Positions 14,553 through 21,656 of a DNA stretch of 35,386 nt are shown piece after piece. The stretch comes from Planctomycetota bacterium (GTDB taxonomy: Bacteria; Planctomycetota; UBA1135; GCA-002748355): assembly GCA_026984035.1 (NCBI GenBank), contig JALSSW010000177.1, positions 1 through 35,386 on the forward strand, written 5' to 3'. Both the position numbers and the translations under genes were made by a program. The notes under the pieces were generated by a model, which had not been told where the DNA came from, did not search any database, and saw nothing but the letters and a program-made list of their open reading frames with translations. Each line of letters opens with the position of its first letter. Within the stretch, counting starts at the first letter, position 1.

Positions 14553-17500
14553 ATGGCACTCAAGGGAGACCTTGCAAGCGTGGGGCTGGCGGACGTTTTT
14601 CAGATGCTCGCCATGAACCAGAAAGTAGGCATTCTCTCCATTCAAGGAGAGGAGGGTTGGAGAGCTCTATTCTTCGATAAGAATGGGGTCACGCTCTTTT
14701 ATAATGAACATCTTTTCTTGGATCGTCTTCTGGACAACTTGGTTCGTAAAGGACTCTTATCTGCGGAATTTGTCCAAACCGCCAGACGAGAAAACCTTGG
14801 GGATCCTGTAGGAACCGCCGAGTCTATGATCGCGAACGGGTCCATCAGAGAGGCGGATTTCCTCGATGGGTTCAGGGACCAGATGGAGGAGGAGATCTAC
14901 GACCTTTTTCTCTGGGGGAATGGGAACTGGGAATTTTTCGAGGGTGCTCATCAGTGCGAAGGTCATGAAGGCGTCATTAATGACCATTTTTTCTTCAGTG
15001 CTGATTCCTTGGTGATGGAGGCCGCTCGTCGGCTGGATGAATGGGCTTACATTCGGGAACAAGTCTCCAGTGAGAACGATGTTTTCGAACGGACGGAGCA
15101 GATTCAAGGCCCCGATATTGCGAAAATCGATGAGGCGAACCTCTCCCTTTATGAGCTGGTGGATGGAAAGCGCAATGTGCGACGGATCATCGATTCCAGC
15201 GGGATTACTCCCTTTTTGGTTTTTAAGACGCTCTCCATTTTTTGCCAGCAGGGCTGGATTCGGCCCCTTCCCCCTGAGCAGCTCGTTCCCACCGCGAGAG
15301 AATGCATCGAAGAATCCCGACTCGAGGATGCGATCCACCTGCTGGAGAAGGCCATCGATGCTGGAATTGGTCTTCCCGAAGCCCATCAGCTTGCGGCGAA
15401 ATGCTATGAGATGAAAAATGAGCCCGCTCGGGCGAATTGGCACTACAAGATCTTCGCCCTTGGGCTTTCGACCGGCGGCAATCCTGCGGGGGCTGCAGAA
15501 ATCCTCAACAAAGTTTTAAGGCGAATTCCTACGGACCTCGAAGCCTGGGAGGAACTGGTAAAAAACCTCCTTCTTCTTGAGAAGCCTGAGAGGGATCCTC
15601 ACGAAGCCGGCCAAAGTTTGATCGAGATCTATTTGGATTTGGAAGAAGTAGAGAGAGCCCGGGCGGTTTTGGAGGGCTTGCTCAAGACTCGGCCTGATGA
15701 CATCGAATTGAAAAAGACCCTTGTCGGCGTTCATAGCAAGGCGGGGGACCAGAAGAAGGTCATGGAGCTTTATGAGTCCATCGCCGGGGATTTAGTCCAA
15801 AGAAAAGATCCCATGGGAGCGGTCCGCTTCCTTCAGAAGATCCTCATGCTGGACCGGAATCGGTCGGATATCTCCGAAAAGATCCGCAATCTCATCCGAT
15901 CGGATGAGCGCAGTCGATCCCGGAAGCGGGGCTTTGCCATTTTGGTCACCTTTGTGGGAGTGGCCATGGTGCTTGGGGTCCTCTATTTCTTTTATGAGAG
16001 AAAGGCGCGGGAGGCTTTCGGCCAGATCAACGCGCAACCCAAGGTTGCTGCCGGAGATTTTCAAGGGGCCATCGATCTCTATCGTTCCTTCTTGAGGCGC
16101 TATCCCTTGAGCCTTGTTGAAGGAGAGGCAAAAGAGGAGATCGCAAGGATCCGCTCTGCAAAGGCCTTGGTCGATGCGGAAAAAGAGAGAGAAACACGGG
16201 CGGAGAAAGCTCGCATTGCCAAAATTCGGGGGAACTACAAGAAACTATGGGAGCAATACCTCATAGAATCGGCCAAGGAAAAACCGGATCTCACAGCCTC
16301 TCTTCGAAAGCTGGAAGGGATTTTGCTCTTAATAGAAGAAGCAGGAAAATCCGTGGATGAAGAGTTTCGTCGGAAAAATCCCATCGACGAAGCGATCGCC
16401 AAGATTCGTTCTTATCTATCTGCTGCAAACGCTCTTTCAAAAGCGAAGGAGAAAGCCCTTGCGAAGGGAGATTGGAAAAAGGCCAGGGCTCTTGCTTTAA
16501 AAATAGAGGCGGAGTACCCCCTATCCCCCAATTTGAAGACCTTGAAGGTTCCCGTCTATCTGAGGACACTTCCGAAGGGTGCTGAGATCCTGTTGGATGG
16601 AAAGCTTGTAACAGATGGGGACGGGAATCCTCTGCGAACACCCGCTGCGATCGGGATTCCTCCTTCCAGGAAGTCGAAAATCCTTTTACAAAAGGCTGGC
16701 TTTCTTTCTAAAAGCCTGACTTTGACCGGCAAAGGACCACTCCCTTCTCTTGTCTATCTTCCGGTGCGGCCGATTCATTCCTTCCAGAGTCCCAGGAAAT
16801 GGAGCGTTGGACCCGTTCCGGCAGGAAAGAACCTTCTCATTGGAGGATTCGGAGGTGTGCTTGCTTCGATCAATCCTCTCAACGGCAAAGAACGCTTCGC
16901 TACGATCTTGAAGGATTTGGAAGAAGTTTCCCATCCCCCGGTTCTTTGCGGGGAGATGGCGGTGCTGATCACCTCAGGGAAACATCTTGTGGGCTTGGAT
17001 CTGGAGAGAGGAGAGATCGTTTGGTCGACCGCCTTGGACAAGGTCAGGAACAGCAACCTTCTGGCCCTGGGCGATCGAGTTGTTGTTTTGGATGCGGGAG
17101 GGGTTCTTCGGTCCTGGAGTGTGAACCTGGGGAAGAAGGGGTGGACCGTCTCCATTGAAGATCCCTCCAAGGCTGTTCTTCGCATGTTTCGGGGGCGACT
17201 TTGGGTGATCCAACGCTCCGGAAATGTCAGCATCTTGAATCCCGAAGATGGTGAGGTTTTTTACTCCCGGAAAATCGGGGAGGAATTCGTCGGAGAACCG
17301 GTGGTGCATGATGGAGTCCTCTACGTTTTGGGTTTGGAGGGGAACATCCATCGATTTGATCCAGTTCGTGGATATCTCGGGATCCATTCTTCTCTCAAGA
17401 TTCCACAAGGCGTTCCGTGGGCCATGTTTCGGTTGGGAGACCGATTTGCTGTCCTCAATGACACAGGACATCTGTTTTTTGAGGATAAGAATGGGCCGGA

Positions 17501-17738
17501 GACGAATCGCTTGTCCTCTCTTAGCGGAAAGCCGATTGCAGCGCCTCTCGTGACCTCTACGGGGGTTTATTTCGCTGCGGAGGACAAAGACGGCAAGTCC
17601 TTCCTTGTTTCTGTGGACCGAAAGGGGCAGATACGCTGGCGCTATGACTTCAAAGGAATCCTTGTAGGCAAACCTTCTTTGTGGGGGGAGCGAGTCGTTA
17701 CTGCAGTCCGAGATGGCCGCGTTTTTGTGCTGAAGTAG
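14553..17738 (+). CDS. DUF4388-TPR-transmembrane-PEGA-PQQ propeller protein
   Basis: A 1061-residue multidomain protein. Residues 1-130 are a DUF4388 (PATAN-type) domain: MALKGDLASVGLADVFQML, ILSIQGEEGWRALFF. About 240-440 is a TPR-like helical array. A single membrane segment lies at about 458-478, preceded by a basic RSRSRKR, so the N-terminal part should be cytoplasmic. Next come a charged coiled-coil region (about 485-655), a PEGA-like domain (about 662-740; LPKGAEILLDGK) and, from about 745, PQQ-type propeller repeats (GSFGG-like VLASINPLNGKERF, LVGLDLERGEIVW, VSILNPEDGEVFY) that should be periplasmic. It heads a run with three roadblock proteins and an MglA-type GTPase, so it may link the envelope to that switch. 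Exact function unknown. Confidence 0.9.
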   Translation: MALKGDLASVGLADVFQMLAMNQKVGILSIQGEEGWRALFFDKNGVTLFYNEHLFLDRLLDNLVRKGLLSAEFVQTARRENLGDPVGTAESMIANGSIREADFLDGFRDQMEEEIYDLFLWGNGNWEFFEGAHQCEGHEGVINDHFFFSADSLVMEAARRLDEWAYIREQVSSENDVFERTEQIQGPDIAKIDEANLSLYELVDGKRNVRRIIDSSGITPFLVFKTLSIFCQQGWIRPLPPEQLVPTARECIEESRLEDAIHLLEKAIDAGIGLPEAHQLAAKCYEMKNEPARANWHYKIFALGLSTGGNPAGAAEILNKVLRRIPTDLEAWEELVKNLLLLEKPERDPHEAGQSLIEIYLDLEEVERARAVLEGLLKTRPDDIELKKTLVGVHSKAGDQKKVMELYESIAGDLVQRKDPMGAVRFLQKILMLDRNRSDISEKIRNLIRSDERSRSRKRGFAILVTFVGVAMVLGVLYFFYERKAREAFGQINAQPKVAAGDFQGAIDLYRSFLRRYPLSLVEGEAKEEIARIRSAKALVDAEKERETRAEKARIAKIRGNYKKLWEQYLIESAKEKPDLTASLRKLEGILLLIEEAGKSVDEEFRRKNPIDEAIAKIRSYLSAANALSKAKEKALAKGDWKKARALALKIEAEYPLSPNLKTLKVPVYLRTLPKGAEILLDGKLVTDGDGNPLRTPAAIGIPPSRKSKILLQKAGFLSKSLTLTGKGPLPSLVYLPVRPIHSFQSPRKWSVGPVPAGKNLLIGGFGGVLASINPLNGKERFATILKDLEEVSHPPVLCGEMAVLITSGKHLVGLDLERGEIVWSTALDKVRNSNLLALGDRVVVLDAGGVLRSWSVNLGKKGWTVSIEDPSKAVLRMFRGRLWVIQRSGNVSILNPEDGEVFYSRKIGEEFVGEPVVHDGVLYVLGLEGNIHRFDPVRGYLGIHSSLKIPQGVPWAMFRLGDRFAVLNDTGHLFFEDKNGPETNRLSSLSGKPIAAPLVTSTGVYFAAEDKDGKSFLVSVDRKGQIRWRYDFKGILVGKPSLWGERVVTAVRDGRVFVLK

Positions 17739-17806
17739 GGGATTTAGGACGGTGCGTAAAAAAACCGATAGAAACCCAGGGATGCTTGGATCCAACGGGA
17801 GAGAGT

Positions 17807-18931
17807 GTGAGCCTATTTAAGCGGTTCAAAATAACCAGAGAACTTTCCAGGCTGGAGAAGAAGGCCAAGGAAGACCCTTCGCCTTCCCTGTTTGTGGACC
17901 TCGCTCAGGTCTACATCAACTTGGGTTCTCAAGAGGATGCCCTTAGGGTTGTTGAGGAAGGTTTGGTTCTCTTTCCCCGTTCCGATGAACTGCGCAAAGT
18001 CCATGGTTTTGCAAAAAAACAAGTTCTGACAAAGAAAATCGAATCCCTTCGAGGGGAGCTCTCGAAGAGTCCGAGGCCTCATCTCTTCCTCAAGTTGGCT
18101 CAAGCCTATTTGGGGCAGGGGGATGAAGACTCTGCTTTTGCGGTCTGTCGGGAATGTTTGAAGCGTTACCCTGAGGATTTGGAGTCGCGCTTGCTTTTTG
18201 CGGAGATGGCCACTCGTGCCTTCCAAAAAACCTTGAATGTGGACAAAGGAAGAGAAGCCCATCAGGTTCTTCTCGAAATCCTCGAGCGTGATGAAAGGAA
18301 TAAGAAGGCCCACAAGGAATTGGCCCAGCTATTCTTTGGAATCGGCTATTTGGAGGGGTCTCAGCACCACCTTGGCATCTTGAGGAGCCTTGGCAGGATC
18401 GATAAGGAATCACGGGATCTGGAACAGGAGATCTTGCACGCCCTGGAAGAAGGAGCCCCTTCCTTTGACGACCCCGGCACAGCTCTTTTGGAAGTGGAGA
18501 AGAGAGGGGGCTTGATTCATGGCAAAAAGAGAAGCCTTGGTGGAGGACCGAAAAGGATCCTTGCTTCGGAAGAAGCCCTAAACGATGTAAGAGAAGGTCT
18601 CTCCAAGCTGGTGGCAAGGGAAGGGGTTTCAAAGGCTGCCTATATTCGGGGAAGCAAAGCGCTTGTTCGTGGGGAAGTTCGGGATGGTCGTGATCCCTTC
18701 CTCAAAACTGCCCGTGTCTTTGCCAAGGTGGCACAGAGGACGGTAAGGAGGATGGACCTGGGAAACTTCAGTAAGGGGATCCTGGACGGAGTCTTCGGGC
18801 ATATTTGCATTTGCAGTTTTGGGGATGTTTGTGCTGCGGTCCAATGCCAGGGGAATGCAGACCTCGATTGGGTGCTCCAAGACCTCCAGGACTTGGTTGC
18901 GAAATCCCTTTACACGGCGGGAAAGAAATAG
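17807..18931 (+). CDS. TPR-roadblock/LC7 fusion protein
   Basis: A 374-residue protein. Residues about 20-215 are TPR-like helix pairs (PSPSLFVDLAQVYINLGSQE, PHLFLKLAQAYLGQGDEDSA, NKKAHKELAQLFFGIGYLEG). Residues about 258-370 resemble a roadblock/LC7 domain: LSKLVAREGVSKAAYIRGSK, a central helix, then HICICSFGDVCAAVQCQGNA and DLQDLVAKSL. Roadblock proteins of the MglB type bind and stimulate small GTPases. I chose the GTG at 17807 because GGGAGAGA lies just upstream; no in-frame ATG fits. It starts 69 bases after the propeller-protein gene and is 21 bases before the next roadblock gene, as in an operon. Confidence 0.78.
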   Translation: MSLFKRFKITRELSRLEKKAKEDPSPSLFVDLAQVYINLGSQEDALRVVEEGLVLFPRSDELRKVHGFAKKQVLTKKIESLRGELSKSPRPHLFLKLAQAYLGQGDEDSAFAVCRECLKRYPEDLESRLLFAEMATRAFQKTLNVDKGREAHQVLLEILERDERNKKAHKELAQLFFGIGYLEGSQHHLGILRSLGRIDKESRDLEQEILHALEEGAPSFDDPGTALLEVEKRGGLIHGKKRSLGGGPKRILASEEALNDVREGLSKLVAREGVSKAAYIRGSKALVRGEVRDGRDPFLKTARVFAKVAQRTVRRMDLGNFSKGILDGVFGHICICSFGDVCAAVQCQGNADLDWVLQDLQDLVAKSLYTAGKK

Positions 18932-18952
18932 GGTGCGCCCAAGGGGAGAAAC

Positions 18953-19306
18953 ATGGACGAACTTCTAAGAGATCTCATGAAAAAGGTGGGGGCTAAAGGA
19001 GCCTTAGTTGTTACCAATGATGGGATGGTCGTAGCTGGGTTCGTTCGGGCGGATACCCGAAAGGACGTTGTAGGCGCCCTTTCATCTTTTCTCATTTCGG
19101 CGACCAATCGTTGCCTCATGCAGGGGAATGTTGGGGGGTTCAACCGGATTTTTCTGAAAGCCACCCACGGAAAGATCCTTATCCAGGCCCTGAAGGACTA
19201 TTTTGTGGTTGTCTTGACCGACCAATTTTCGGACAAGGTCTTGTTGGTCGATGAAACCATGCGGGTGGCTTCCAAGCTTAGAAAGCTGACCACCATCCAG
19301 TCCTGA
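18953..19306 (+). CDS. Roadblock/LC7 domain protein (MglB-like)
   Basis: A 117-residue, single-domain roadblock protein: DLMKKVGAKGALVVTNDGMV, a middle helix with ALSSFLISATNRC, ILIQALKDYFVVVLTDQ and a final helix VASKLRKL. The length and order match the MglB family, which forms homodimers that act on MglA-type GTPases. GGGGAG lies four bases before the ATG. It sits between the TPR-roadblock gene and the GTPase gene. The GAP or scaffold role is inferred from the family, not seen. Confidence 0.88.
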   Translation: MDELLRDLMKKVGAKGALVVTNDGMVVAGFVRADTRKDVVGALSSFLISATNRCLMQGNVGGFNRIFLKATHGKILIQALKDYFVVVLTDQFSDKVLLVDETMRVASKLRKLTTIQS

Positions 19307-19343
19307 AGCCGGGTTTGCTGCCCTGCCGTCCTGTGCCTTCTTT

Positions 19344-19372
19344 TTGACGAAGTGCGTAAATCGGACTAAAGG
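19344..19372 (+). promoter_or_regulatory. Candidate sigma-70-type promoter before the MglA-like gene
   Basis: TTGACG (19344-19349) is followed after 17 bases by TAAAGG (19367-19372). The -35 is good, the -10 weak. It lies in the 190-base gap before the GTPase gene, the largest gap within the locus, and could give the GTPase and last roadblock gene their own promoter. Confidence 0.35.
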
Positions 19373-19496
19373 ATTTAGTGGATCATGACGAAACCTTTGG
19401 AAGGGGTTCACGGCTCATCTTTCTAGGTTGTGAAGACCCATACACTCCAAGGGCTGCGGGGCCCAAACAAACAAAGGGACAGGAGTCAGCAAAGCC

Positions 19497-20441
19497 ATGG
19501 TCCAAATCAACTTCGCCCTCAAGGAAGTCAACTGTAAGATTGTCTTCTATGGTCCTGGGATGAGCGGTAAGACCACCAACCTGGAGGTCGTCCACCAAAA
19601 AGCACCGGAAGAGAACAAGGGGGATTTGACTTCGATCTCGACCGATGGAGATCGAACTTTGTTCTTTGATTTCATGCCGCTCGACCTGGGAAAAATCGCT
19701 GGGATGCAAACAAAATTCCAGCTCTATACCGTTCCCGGTCAAGTCTATTACAACTCAACGCGGAAACTTGTCCTACAAGGGGTTGATGGAGTCATCTTCG
19801 TCGCCGAATCAGACCCTGACAAGATGGCCGAGAATATCGAAAGCTACGAGAACCTGATCGAGAACCTCATTGAATATGGAAAGGATCTTCAAGACCTTCC
19901 CCATGTCATTCAATACAACAAACGGGACCTCCCCAATGCTCTTCCTGTGGAAGAAATTGATCGACAGCTGAATAGGTTTGGAGTTCCGACCTTTGAAGCA
20001 GTGGCAAAGACAGGAGAAGGGGTCTTTCCCACATTGAAGACTCTTGCGGGGATGGTGTTGGAGAGTATCAATAAATCGGACCGTGGAGGGGGAAGGGGGC
20101 CCAGTAGATCCCCACGCCCGCAGACTACGAATTCGGCCCCAAGCCCCGAGGTAGCTCCCCAAGGAAGAGGGGCGAGCGCAAAAGCGCCGAAAACTTCCGG
20201 TCGAGGCCCGGCACCTGCACCTCGGCAGGCGCGGCCGGTTGCGGCTCCAAGAGGCAAGGCTCCCGTTGCAAAACAGGCCCCACGGAAGGGGGGGCAACCC
20301 AGGCAGGGACCAAGAGTTGCTGTCCAAGCTAATGCTCCCGTCAAGAAGGAAGGGAAGGGATTCCTTGTTGCCTTTCTTGTCTTATTGATGGCTGCCGTTG
20401 CGGGAGTCGCGTACTTGGTCATGCAGCAGCAGGGCTTTTAA
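19497..20441 (+). CDS. mglA: MglA-type Ras-like GTPase with C-terminal membrane anchor
   Basis: A 314-residue protein; ordinary MglA is about 195. Residues 1-195 are the GTPase: P-loop GPGMSGKTT (19-27), DGDRTLFFDFMPLDLG with Arg53, switch II YTVPGQVYY with Gln82, and NKRD (141-144). Arg53 and Gln82 are the residues used for hydrolysis in Myxococcus MglA. Then comes a Pro/Ala/Gly/Arg-rich linker (about 196-285) and one hydrophobic helix (288-309) with a five-residue QQQGF end, so the protein is tail-anchored, GTPase in the cytoplasm. AGGAG precedes the ATG by 11 bases. The start of the last roadblock gene follows after 22 bases. The symbol refers to the domain family; the role in polarity or motility is not shown here. 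Confidence 0.93.
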   Translation: MVQINFALKEVNCKIVFYGPGMSGKTTNLEVVHQKAPEENKGDLTSISTDGDRTLFFDFMPLDLGKIAGMQTKFQLYTVPGQVYYNSTRKLVLQGVDGVIFVAESDPDKMAENIESYENLIENLIEYGKDLQDLPHVIQYNKRDLPNALPVEEIDRQLNRFGVPTFEAVAKTGEGVFPTLKTLAGMVLESINKSDRGGGRGPSRSPRPQTTNSAPSPEVAPQGRGASAKAPKTSGRGPAPAPRQARPVAAPRGKAPVAKQAPRKGGQPRQGPRVAVQANAPVKKEGKGFLVAFLVLLMAAVAGVAYLVMQQQGF

Positions 20442-20463
20442 TCCTTTCAGGAGAGGGAAAAGG

Positions 20464-20976
20464 ATGACTTCAGACCAAAGACTCCGTCAGAGCAGACTGG
20501 TTTTCTATGAAGATGATATTTCGAAGATCGATAAGATTCTCTCGGAGTTCCTCCGTTTGAGTGGGGCAAAATGTGCCCTCCTTGTAGATAAAGAAGGGCA
20601 TTTGGTGACCAAGCAGGGAGAAGTGAAAACTTTGAACATGGACACGATCTCTGCCCTTGTAGCTGGCTCTTTCGCAGCCACAAAGGAGATGGCGAAACTC
20701 TTGGGAGAAGAACACTTTTCCGCTCTTTTTCACCAAGGGGAGCGGGATAACATCCAACTTTCTTTGGTCGGTGATCGAACCCTTCTGACAATCCTCTTCG
20801 ATGATCGGACGACAGTGGGGATGGTTCGGCTCTATGCAAACGAAGCTTGCAAGAAATTGGTGAATATTTTCGACGAATCCGAACGACGGATGAAGGAAGA
20901 GGGGCCGAGAGAATTGGATCTTGGAAAGGGGTATGGGAATTCAGCGAAGGACAAGCTGGATAATCTCTTTCAGTAA
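20464..20976 (+). CDS. Roadblock/LC7 (MglB-like) protein with C-terminal extension
   Basis: A 170-residue protein with a roadblock domain at about 20-135: KIDKILSEFLRLSGAKCALL, a VTKQGEV strand, ALVAGSFAATKEMAKLLGEE, QLSLVGDRTLLTILF and YANEACKKLVNIF. A charged tail of about 35 residues follows. The family regulates MglA-type GTPases. I chose the ATG at 20464 because GGAGAGGG lies six bases upstream; an earlier in-frame start at 20398 would overlap the GTPase gene. It is the last gene before a strong terminator. Of the three roadblock proteins in this locus, it is the one immediately after the GTPase, so it is the best MglB candidate. Confidence 0.88.
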   Translation: MTSDQRLRQSRLVFYEDDISKIDKILSEFLRLSGAKCALLVDKEGHLVTKQGEVKTLNMDTISALVAGSFAATKEMAKLLGEEHFSALFHQGERDNIQLSLVGDRTLLTILFDDRTTVGMVRLYANEACKKLVNIFDESERRMKEEGPRELDLGKGYGNSAKDKLDNLFQ

Positions 20977-21317
20977 CGATCCGATTGCTTGAAGGCAAAA
21001 AGAACCTCGAAGGGTTTCCTTCGGGGTTTTTTTGTACTTTTCGTGAAAGAAAAAACAAAAAAACTTCCTGGAAAGAAAATTCTCCTTCAGGTTTTAATGT
21101 GGAAGGAATGCCAGTTAAATGAGTTCTTTTTGGGAAGTTGCAAAACGTTTTAGCGGGAATTGGTCGCTAGTCCTTTTGGGATCAAGAGTTGTGACTGAAT
21201 TTATATCGGAGAGTTGCCGATGATCTGAGGAGATCCAACCTTCATCCATTGGTTGGAAAGTTTCCGTACCAATCAAGGTGCAAACAATCGATTGTCACTC
21301 AATCAGGAGTCAACCAT
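20977..21317 (+). other. Intergenic region between roadblock gene and histone-like gene
   Basis: 341 bases with no gene I can support. It contains the terminator at 21003-21033 and then an A/T-rich leader up to the AGGAG of the lysine-rich gene. A promoter must lie here; TATATC near 21202 is a possible -10 but has no convincing -35. Confidence 0.5.
21003..21033 (+). terminator. Rho-independent terminator after the GTPase/roadblock locus
   Basis: AACCTCGAAGG (21003-21013) pairs over all 11 positions (one G-T) with CCTTCGGGGTT (21018-21028), around a GTTT loop, followed by a run of seven T. It closes the locus starting at 14553. Confidence 0.9.
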
Positions 21318-21656
21318 ATGGCTGCTAAGAAAAAAGCGACCAAGAAAAAGGCCGCCAAGAAAAAGGTGACCAAGAAGGCCACCAAGAAGAAAGCGACCAA
21401 GAAAAAGGCTGCCAAGAAAAAGGCAACCAAGAAAAAGGCCACCAAAAAGAAAGCGACCAAGAAAAAGGCCGCCAAGAAAAAGGTGACCAAGAAGGCCACC
21501 AAGAAGAAAGCGACCAAGAAAAAGGCTGCTAAGAAAAAGGTGACCAAGAAGAAAGCGACCAAGAAAAAGGCCACCAAGAAGAAAGCGACCAAGAAAAAGG
21601 CCGCTAAGAAAAAAGCTGCAAAGAAAAAGACCGCCAAGAAGCGGGCTCGTAGATAA
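21318..21656 (+). CDS. Lysine/alanine-rich repeat protein (histone H1-like)
   Basis: A 112-residue protein made almost wholly of four- to five-residue units KKAT, KKAA and KKVT, ending KKRARR. It has no globular part. Such proteins resemble histone H1 tails and bacterial H1-like DNA-binding proteins, so binding to DNA or RNA by charge is likely. The ATG at 21318 has AGGAG eight bases upstream; the earlier in-frame start at 21249 gives an unrelated N-terminus and was not used. The gene uses AAG/AAA codons with a DNA-level repeat of 117 bases inside. It is followed by a strong bidirectional hairpin. The sequence is highly repetitive, so copy-number changes between strains are likely. Confidence 0.85.
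   Translation: MAAKKKATKKKAAKKKVTKKATKKKATKKKAAKKKATKKKATKKKATKKKAAKKKVTKKATKKKATKKKAAKKKVTKKKATKKKATKKKATKKKAAKKKAAKKKTAKKRARR
21351..21529 (+). repeat. 117-base internal repeat in the lysine-rich gene
   Basis: The 62 bases at 21351-21412 recur without a mismatch at 21468-21529, a period of 117 bases (39 codons). Shorter units of 12 bases built on ACCAAGAAAAAG fill the rest. This is coding repeat, not a CRISPR array: no spacers vary between units. Confidence 0.85.

Follow-up and report, generated by a model that had tools for sequence, protein, structure and literature searches.

The window (the whole stretch of DNA analysed, 35,386 nucleotides from a Planctomycetota bacterium) carries a five-gene cluster that seems to encode a form of the MglA/MglB switch not described before, one bound to the membrane, the parent switch being known from polarity and pilus control elsewhere. 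We consider it reasonably probable that an MglA/MglB switch tethered to the membrane is here combined with a roadblock pair of its own and, in most lineages, with a trans-envelope partner; the contacts among these parts, the direction of the signal and an output through pili are what we infer from this arrangement. The five plus-strand open reading frames listed by the initial annotation (14553-20976) are all present in the order it gave, and the strong terminator with which it closed the cluster was recovered. The features are as follows.

14553..17738, plus strand: gene 1, 1061 aa; DUF4388/PATAN-TPR-TM-PEGA-BamB-like propeller
17807..18931, plus strand: gene 2, 374 aa; TPR superhelix (3-233) and C-terminal roadblock (255-373)
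18953..19306, plus strand: gene 3, 117 aa; roadblock (Robl_LC7) standing alone, constant partner of gene 2
19307..19496, plus strand: gap before mglA, 190 bases; possible site of a separate promoter
19497..20441, plus strand: mglA (gene 4), 314 aa; G domain 1-196, linker about 197-285, TM 290-308
20464..20976, plus strand: mglB (gene 5), 170 aa; MglB-type roadblock with C-terminal helix segment
20998..21033, plus strand: intrinsic terminator; 16-pair stem, 4-base loop and T run

The intergenic gaps along the cluster measure 68, 21, 190 and 22 bases. A promoter scan found no sigma-70-like site in the 190-base gap before mglA; a separate promoter within this gap is possible, and the gap leaves a single transcript for all five genes unproven. 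Just 3' of the terminator, at 21249-21656, lies a gene for a histone H1-like protein with a lysine/alanine repeat (KKATKKKAAKKK).

Gene 4 matches Myxococcus xanthus MglA at E 6e-73, and the MglA motifs are conserved: G1 GPGxSGKTT, G2 DRTLFFDF with Arg53, and G3 TVPGQ (T78-V-P-G-Q82), where residue numbers follow M. xanthus MglA in the alignment. The intrinsic arginine stands beside the G2 threonine, in a D52-R53-T54 that is invariant in the A1 alignment. TVPGQ together with this arginine is the signature of Group 1 MglA (Wuichet and Sogaard-Andersen 2014, PMC4316618); both are found here, along with a coupled mglB, but at 314 aa the protein exceeds the 150-240 aa of the 2014 survey. Beyond residue 196, the chain continues as a Pro/Ala-rich linker and then a single hydrophobic helix near the C-terminus. 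This tail extends a Group 1 G domain that is itself complete. The C-terminal TM helix is present in nearly every uncut MglA of the first 80 loci examined (the exceptions being L060, L063 and L072), and most copies in the phylum-wide sample of 40 loci have it too. The membrane anchor of the GTPase, which the initial annotation had named only briefly and which most sets the cluster apart, is supported and conserved through the phylum. MglA of the window type is thus predicted to be tail-anchored at the membrane. The G domain has a mean column identity of 83% over 20 diverse MglA members, compared with 62% for MglB, 37% for gene 2, 36% for gene 3 and 34% for gene 1, a rough comparison given that the sequence sets differ between the five genes.

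Two divergent MglA-like proteins were also observed. On a contig labelled Acidobacteria (L060:430-1698), the first half of MglA is nearly Planctomycetota-like and the C-terminal part is diverged, has a long acidic tail and lacks a TM anchor; upstream of it is gene 3, and no mglB was found. Another MglA-like G domain (G000:C80:38855-39412, L090), with 42% identity, forms the N-terminus of a 591-aa protein that is similar at its C-terminal end to the ATPase domain of histidine kinases.

Gene 5 matches M. xanthus MglB at E 9e-29 in one comparison and, in another, at E 5e-37 over residues 4-157, C-terminal helix segment included; it matches the NCBIfam MglB model at E 7e-30, yet below the curated cut-off. 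It is a true MglB, and mglB lies directly 3' of mglA in nearly all loci not cut by contig ends. In M. xanthus, the C-terminal helix of MglB is the element that promotes nucleotide exchange (PMC6785124).

The initial annotation had counted three roadblock proteins for one GTPase and suggested that they may allow several GTPase-partner complexes. The three proteins are indeed distinct, but they are not interchangeable: an ordinary MglB is one of them, and the products of genes 2 and 3 make up another roadblock pair, which has diverged, travels together and is separate from MglB. The best start of gene 2 is the GTG at 17807, compared with an open reading frame start at 17681. Pfam did not find the C-terminal roadblock in the window copy of gene 2. 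A profile comparison matched this region to gene 3 (96%, E 3e-9), and the gene 3 profile matched the gene 2 roadblock domain at 45–57 bits in whole-genome searches. The AlphaFold2 model of gene 2 (pLDDT 93) has the TPR superhelix followed by a roadblock fold (a-bb-a-bbb-a), which Foldseek matched to the solved roadblock proteins 7yh1 and 7f8m (TM 0.75–0.77 by target length); profile, model and fold comparison thus all identify a roadblock fold at the C-terminus of gene 2. In gene 3, Robl_LC7 was detected at 3.5e-9. The mglA locus of families f46 and f77 has lost genes 2 and 3, which adjoin each other elsewhere, and the pair moves jointly in G052, G070, G158 and G191. That the two genes adjoin even away from mglA argues that they act as a pair, and they probably form a heterodimer carrying TPR arms. 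The genes around the relocated pair gave no consistent clue to function. The distance-matrix partial correlation was highest between the gene 2 TPR region and MglA (0.42), which is weak evidence and saturated for the roadblocks. A further roadblock protein of about 121 aa (G000:C192:2624-2887, L081) lies among kinase-like open reading frames, outside the five-gene cluster.

The domains that the initial annotation had assigned to the five genes were likewise recovered, although in the window the PEGA domain of gene 1 stays below the Pfam threshold; Pfam recognises it in 11 of 35 relatives. Gene 1 comprises DUF4388/PATAN (4-165), a winged-helix-like piece (about 194-239), TPRs (241-446), a TM helix (461-479), a helical stalk (495-663), a PEGA-like region (664-725) and a BamB-like propeller (about 740-1060). 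DUF4388, which we take to be the PATAN domain, was matched at E 2e-19 (70 bits, Pfam cut-off 25) and in all 35 relatives at E <= 0.01; no solved structure for it was found by sequence. The propeller has a BamB-like sequence match (E 4e-19), and its closest solved folds in Foldseek are BamB (e.g. 3prw, TM 0.76 by target length, E 3e-16). The AlphaFold2 model (mean pLDDT 83) reproduces the same succession of DUF4388, winged-helix-like piece, TPRs, TM helix, stalk, beta-rich PEGA-like piece and propeller. A single TM helix with Arg/Lys-rich cytoplasmic flanks suggests that gene 1 spans the membrane, with the PATAN-TPR side in the cytoplasm and the stalk and propeller in the periplasm.

Gene 1 is the least fixed member of the five, being sometimes downstream, elsewhere or replaced. 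It lies upstream of the block in most loci and 3' of mglB in some (L102, L115, L118, L128 and L131). In L099, gene 1 homologues flank the 2-3-mglA-mglB block on both sides. One large family of the taxonomic order to which the window belongs has a short TPR-like protein without a propeller in the gene 1 position; because of this replacement, the trans-envelope arm would not be essential to the switch. In L055, L062, L064, L068 and similar loci, a short TPR-like open reading frame 5' of gene 2 takes the place of gene 1, and in several of them it is preceded by a very long open reading frame for a different protein.

Gene order in relatives was followed in 120 loci from about 40 Planctomycetota families (80 plus 40 sampled phylum-wide, the two samples overlapping by several contigs). 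The full order 1-2-3-mglA-mglB was found in 69 of these 120, which count loci and not independent genomes; in most of the remainder a contig end cuts the cluster, gene 1 is missing or lies downstream, or a member falls under the threshold. For genes 2, 3, mglA and mglB, no other relative order was seen in the 120 loci. The initial annotation would have given way had the order not been kept in relatives; it is conserved across the phylum. The mglA-mglB pair and the gene 2-gene 3 pair each travel as sub-modules. When the open reading frames of 40 loci were clustered, only the five families of this locus recurred at high frequency around mglA, and the next, a Ser/Thr kinase, was found in 5 loci. 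An extra cluster (26 open reading frames in 22 of the 40 loci) coincides in position with the five genes and seems to consist of their shadow frames on the opposite strand. The relatives are nearly all labelled Planctomycetota, several being labelled simply 'bacterium' and a single one 'Acidobacteria'. Among them is strain Poly30 (L064, a complete genome), which we take to be Saltatorellus ferox. MglA was detected in 157 of 392 sampled Planctomycetota genomes. Within the window's taxonomic order, it is present in four families and missing from one (f4, 13 genomes).

The window genome has four PilT-family genes over the cut-off. PilT was found in 384 of the 392 Planctomycetota genomes, and given this near-universality presence and absence cannot link the module to pili; co-occurrence was therefore rejected as uninformative. 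Nor did the clustering of the 40 loci reveal a pilus gene recurring near mglA. Each of the 13 f4 genomes, which are without MglA, has one PilT-family gene, and the MglA-bearing genomes of the same order mostly have 3–5, one having 2 (among the best 5 candidates at most); this contrast concerns a single clade and is suggestive. In other bacteria, PATAN regulators have been connected to the pilus motor PilB1 in cyanobacteria (PMC7690835), and the TPR protein SgmX is an effector of MglA-GTP for pili in M. xanthus (PMC7519303).

In the mechanism that we propose, the tail would hold MglA at the inner membrane, so that its GTP/GDP cycle acts locally, without movement between cytoplasm and pole. By analogy, MglB would be the GAP acting on MglA, and its C-terminal helix may also promote nucleotide exchange. 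Heteromeric roadblock complexes are known to act as GEF or GAP (PMC9481161), and on this ground and by analogy with SgmX the complex of genes 2 and 3 may serve as an effector of MglA-GTP, as a scaffold for an exchange factor, or both. In most lineages, gene 1 would place its PATAN-TPR part near the switch and its stalked propeller in the periplasm, and would connect it to a machine that spans the envelope. This machine, on which the switch probably acts, is most likely a surface structure, type IV pili or some other. The more demanding proposal is of a phylum-wide trans-envelope G-protein system, in which an MglB dimer and a dedicated TPR-roadblock/roadblock heterodimer gate a tail-anchored GTPase of the Ras family, and the PATAN-TM-propeller protein couples it directly to a machine in the periplasm or outer membrane; this we put forward tentatively, as a possibility on the doubtful side.

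The same switch could have a different output, namely growth or budding polarity or envelope assembly, with the propeller contacting outer-membrane or wall machinery and the switch marking the site of growth. The BamB folds closest to the gene 1 propeller would suit this, as would the lack of clustering of pili with the module and the presence of PilT in most genomes without it. BamB-like PQQ propellers are, however, a generic periplasmic scaffold, the module is absent from many Planctomycetota families and no growth or division gene recurs nearby in the 40 loci, so that we regard such an output as unlikely. Somewhat less likely again is a relay resembling the conservons, in which the propeller would sense a periplasmic signal and the roadblocks and GTPase would pass it to transcription or to a kinase. 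Conservon operons do contain an MglA-family GTPase together with an MglB-type roadblock and a sensor in the membrane (PMC4316618), 5 of the 40 loci have a Ser/Thr kinase in the neighbourhood and the window genome encodes a kinase-fused MglA paralogue; yet no histidine kinase or CvnC-like gene recurs in those loci, and the GTPase motif is TVPGQ (Group 1) rather than GTPGQ (Group 2).

The cluster might also be an ordinary MglA-MglB pair beside unrelated genes adjacent by chance, since mglA-mglB pairing is by itself common in bacteria (PMC4316618). An order kept over about 40 families, with no other gene comparably retained, contradicts chance adjacency across the phylum, and we rejected this explanation as highly improbable. 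The reading that we prefer remains the membrane-tethered switch with its roadblock pair and envelope partner.

No Ras-like switch of bacteria has been studied better than MglA, which is known to work by leaving and returning to the cell pole. An MglA fixed to the membrane by its own tail, and with a constant set of partners in one cluster, raises the question of how the switch is localized. The cluster offers a candidate parts list (a GAP, a second roadblock complex and an envelope link) in a phylum whose polarity and surface behaviour are poorly understood, and a compact system for asking how roadblock heterodimers serve the small GTPases of bacteria. If the trans-envelope reading is true, it would be a Ras-like switch read and set across the cell envelope.

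Among known systems, the cluster resembles the M. xanthus module (MglA, MglB, MglC, RomR/RomX, SgmX) in its Group 1 motifs, its helix-bearing MglB, its further roadblock and its TPR partner. M. xanthus MglA, at 195 aa, is diffuse in its GDP form, polar in its GTP form and without a tail anchor, whereas the window MglA is predicted to be anchored, and here two roadblocks form a separate pair, one of them fused to TPRs. No receiver-domain gene or RomR/RomX-type gene recurred near mglA in the surroundings of the 40 loci. RomX may itself be a DUF4388 protein, a point that carries no weight in our argument. The mglA gene of M. xanthus lies apart from those for several partner proteins (PMC4316618), whereas in Planctomycetota the partners are clustered. 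The 2014 survey, whose text does not mention Planctomycetota (PMC4316618), would have left out the window MglA because of its 240-aa limit for small GTPases. In the open-licence literature on Planctomycetota MglA or roadblock GTPases and on tail-anchored MglA, we found no description of this system, which is limited evidence. PATAN genes were occasionally found near Group 1 mglA or mglB (PMC4316618; Makarova 2006 cited there); here the linkage is fixed through much of a phylum, and a TM helix joins the PATAN domain, within one protein, to a propeller in the periplasm. The actinobacterial conservon (CvnA-D) likewise joins a membrane protein, one or more roadblock proteins and an MglA-family GTPase in an operon, but neither its CvnA histidine kinase nor CvnC has a counterpart in the cluster, and the GTPase belongs to Group 1 instead of Group 2. 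Finally, the PATAN-CheY regulators of cyanobacterial phototaxis (PixE, PixG and LsiR) share the PATAN domain; they are response regulators with a receiver domain, whereas gene 1, in place of a receiver, has a TM-linked propeller.
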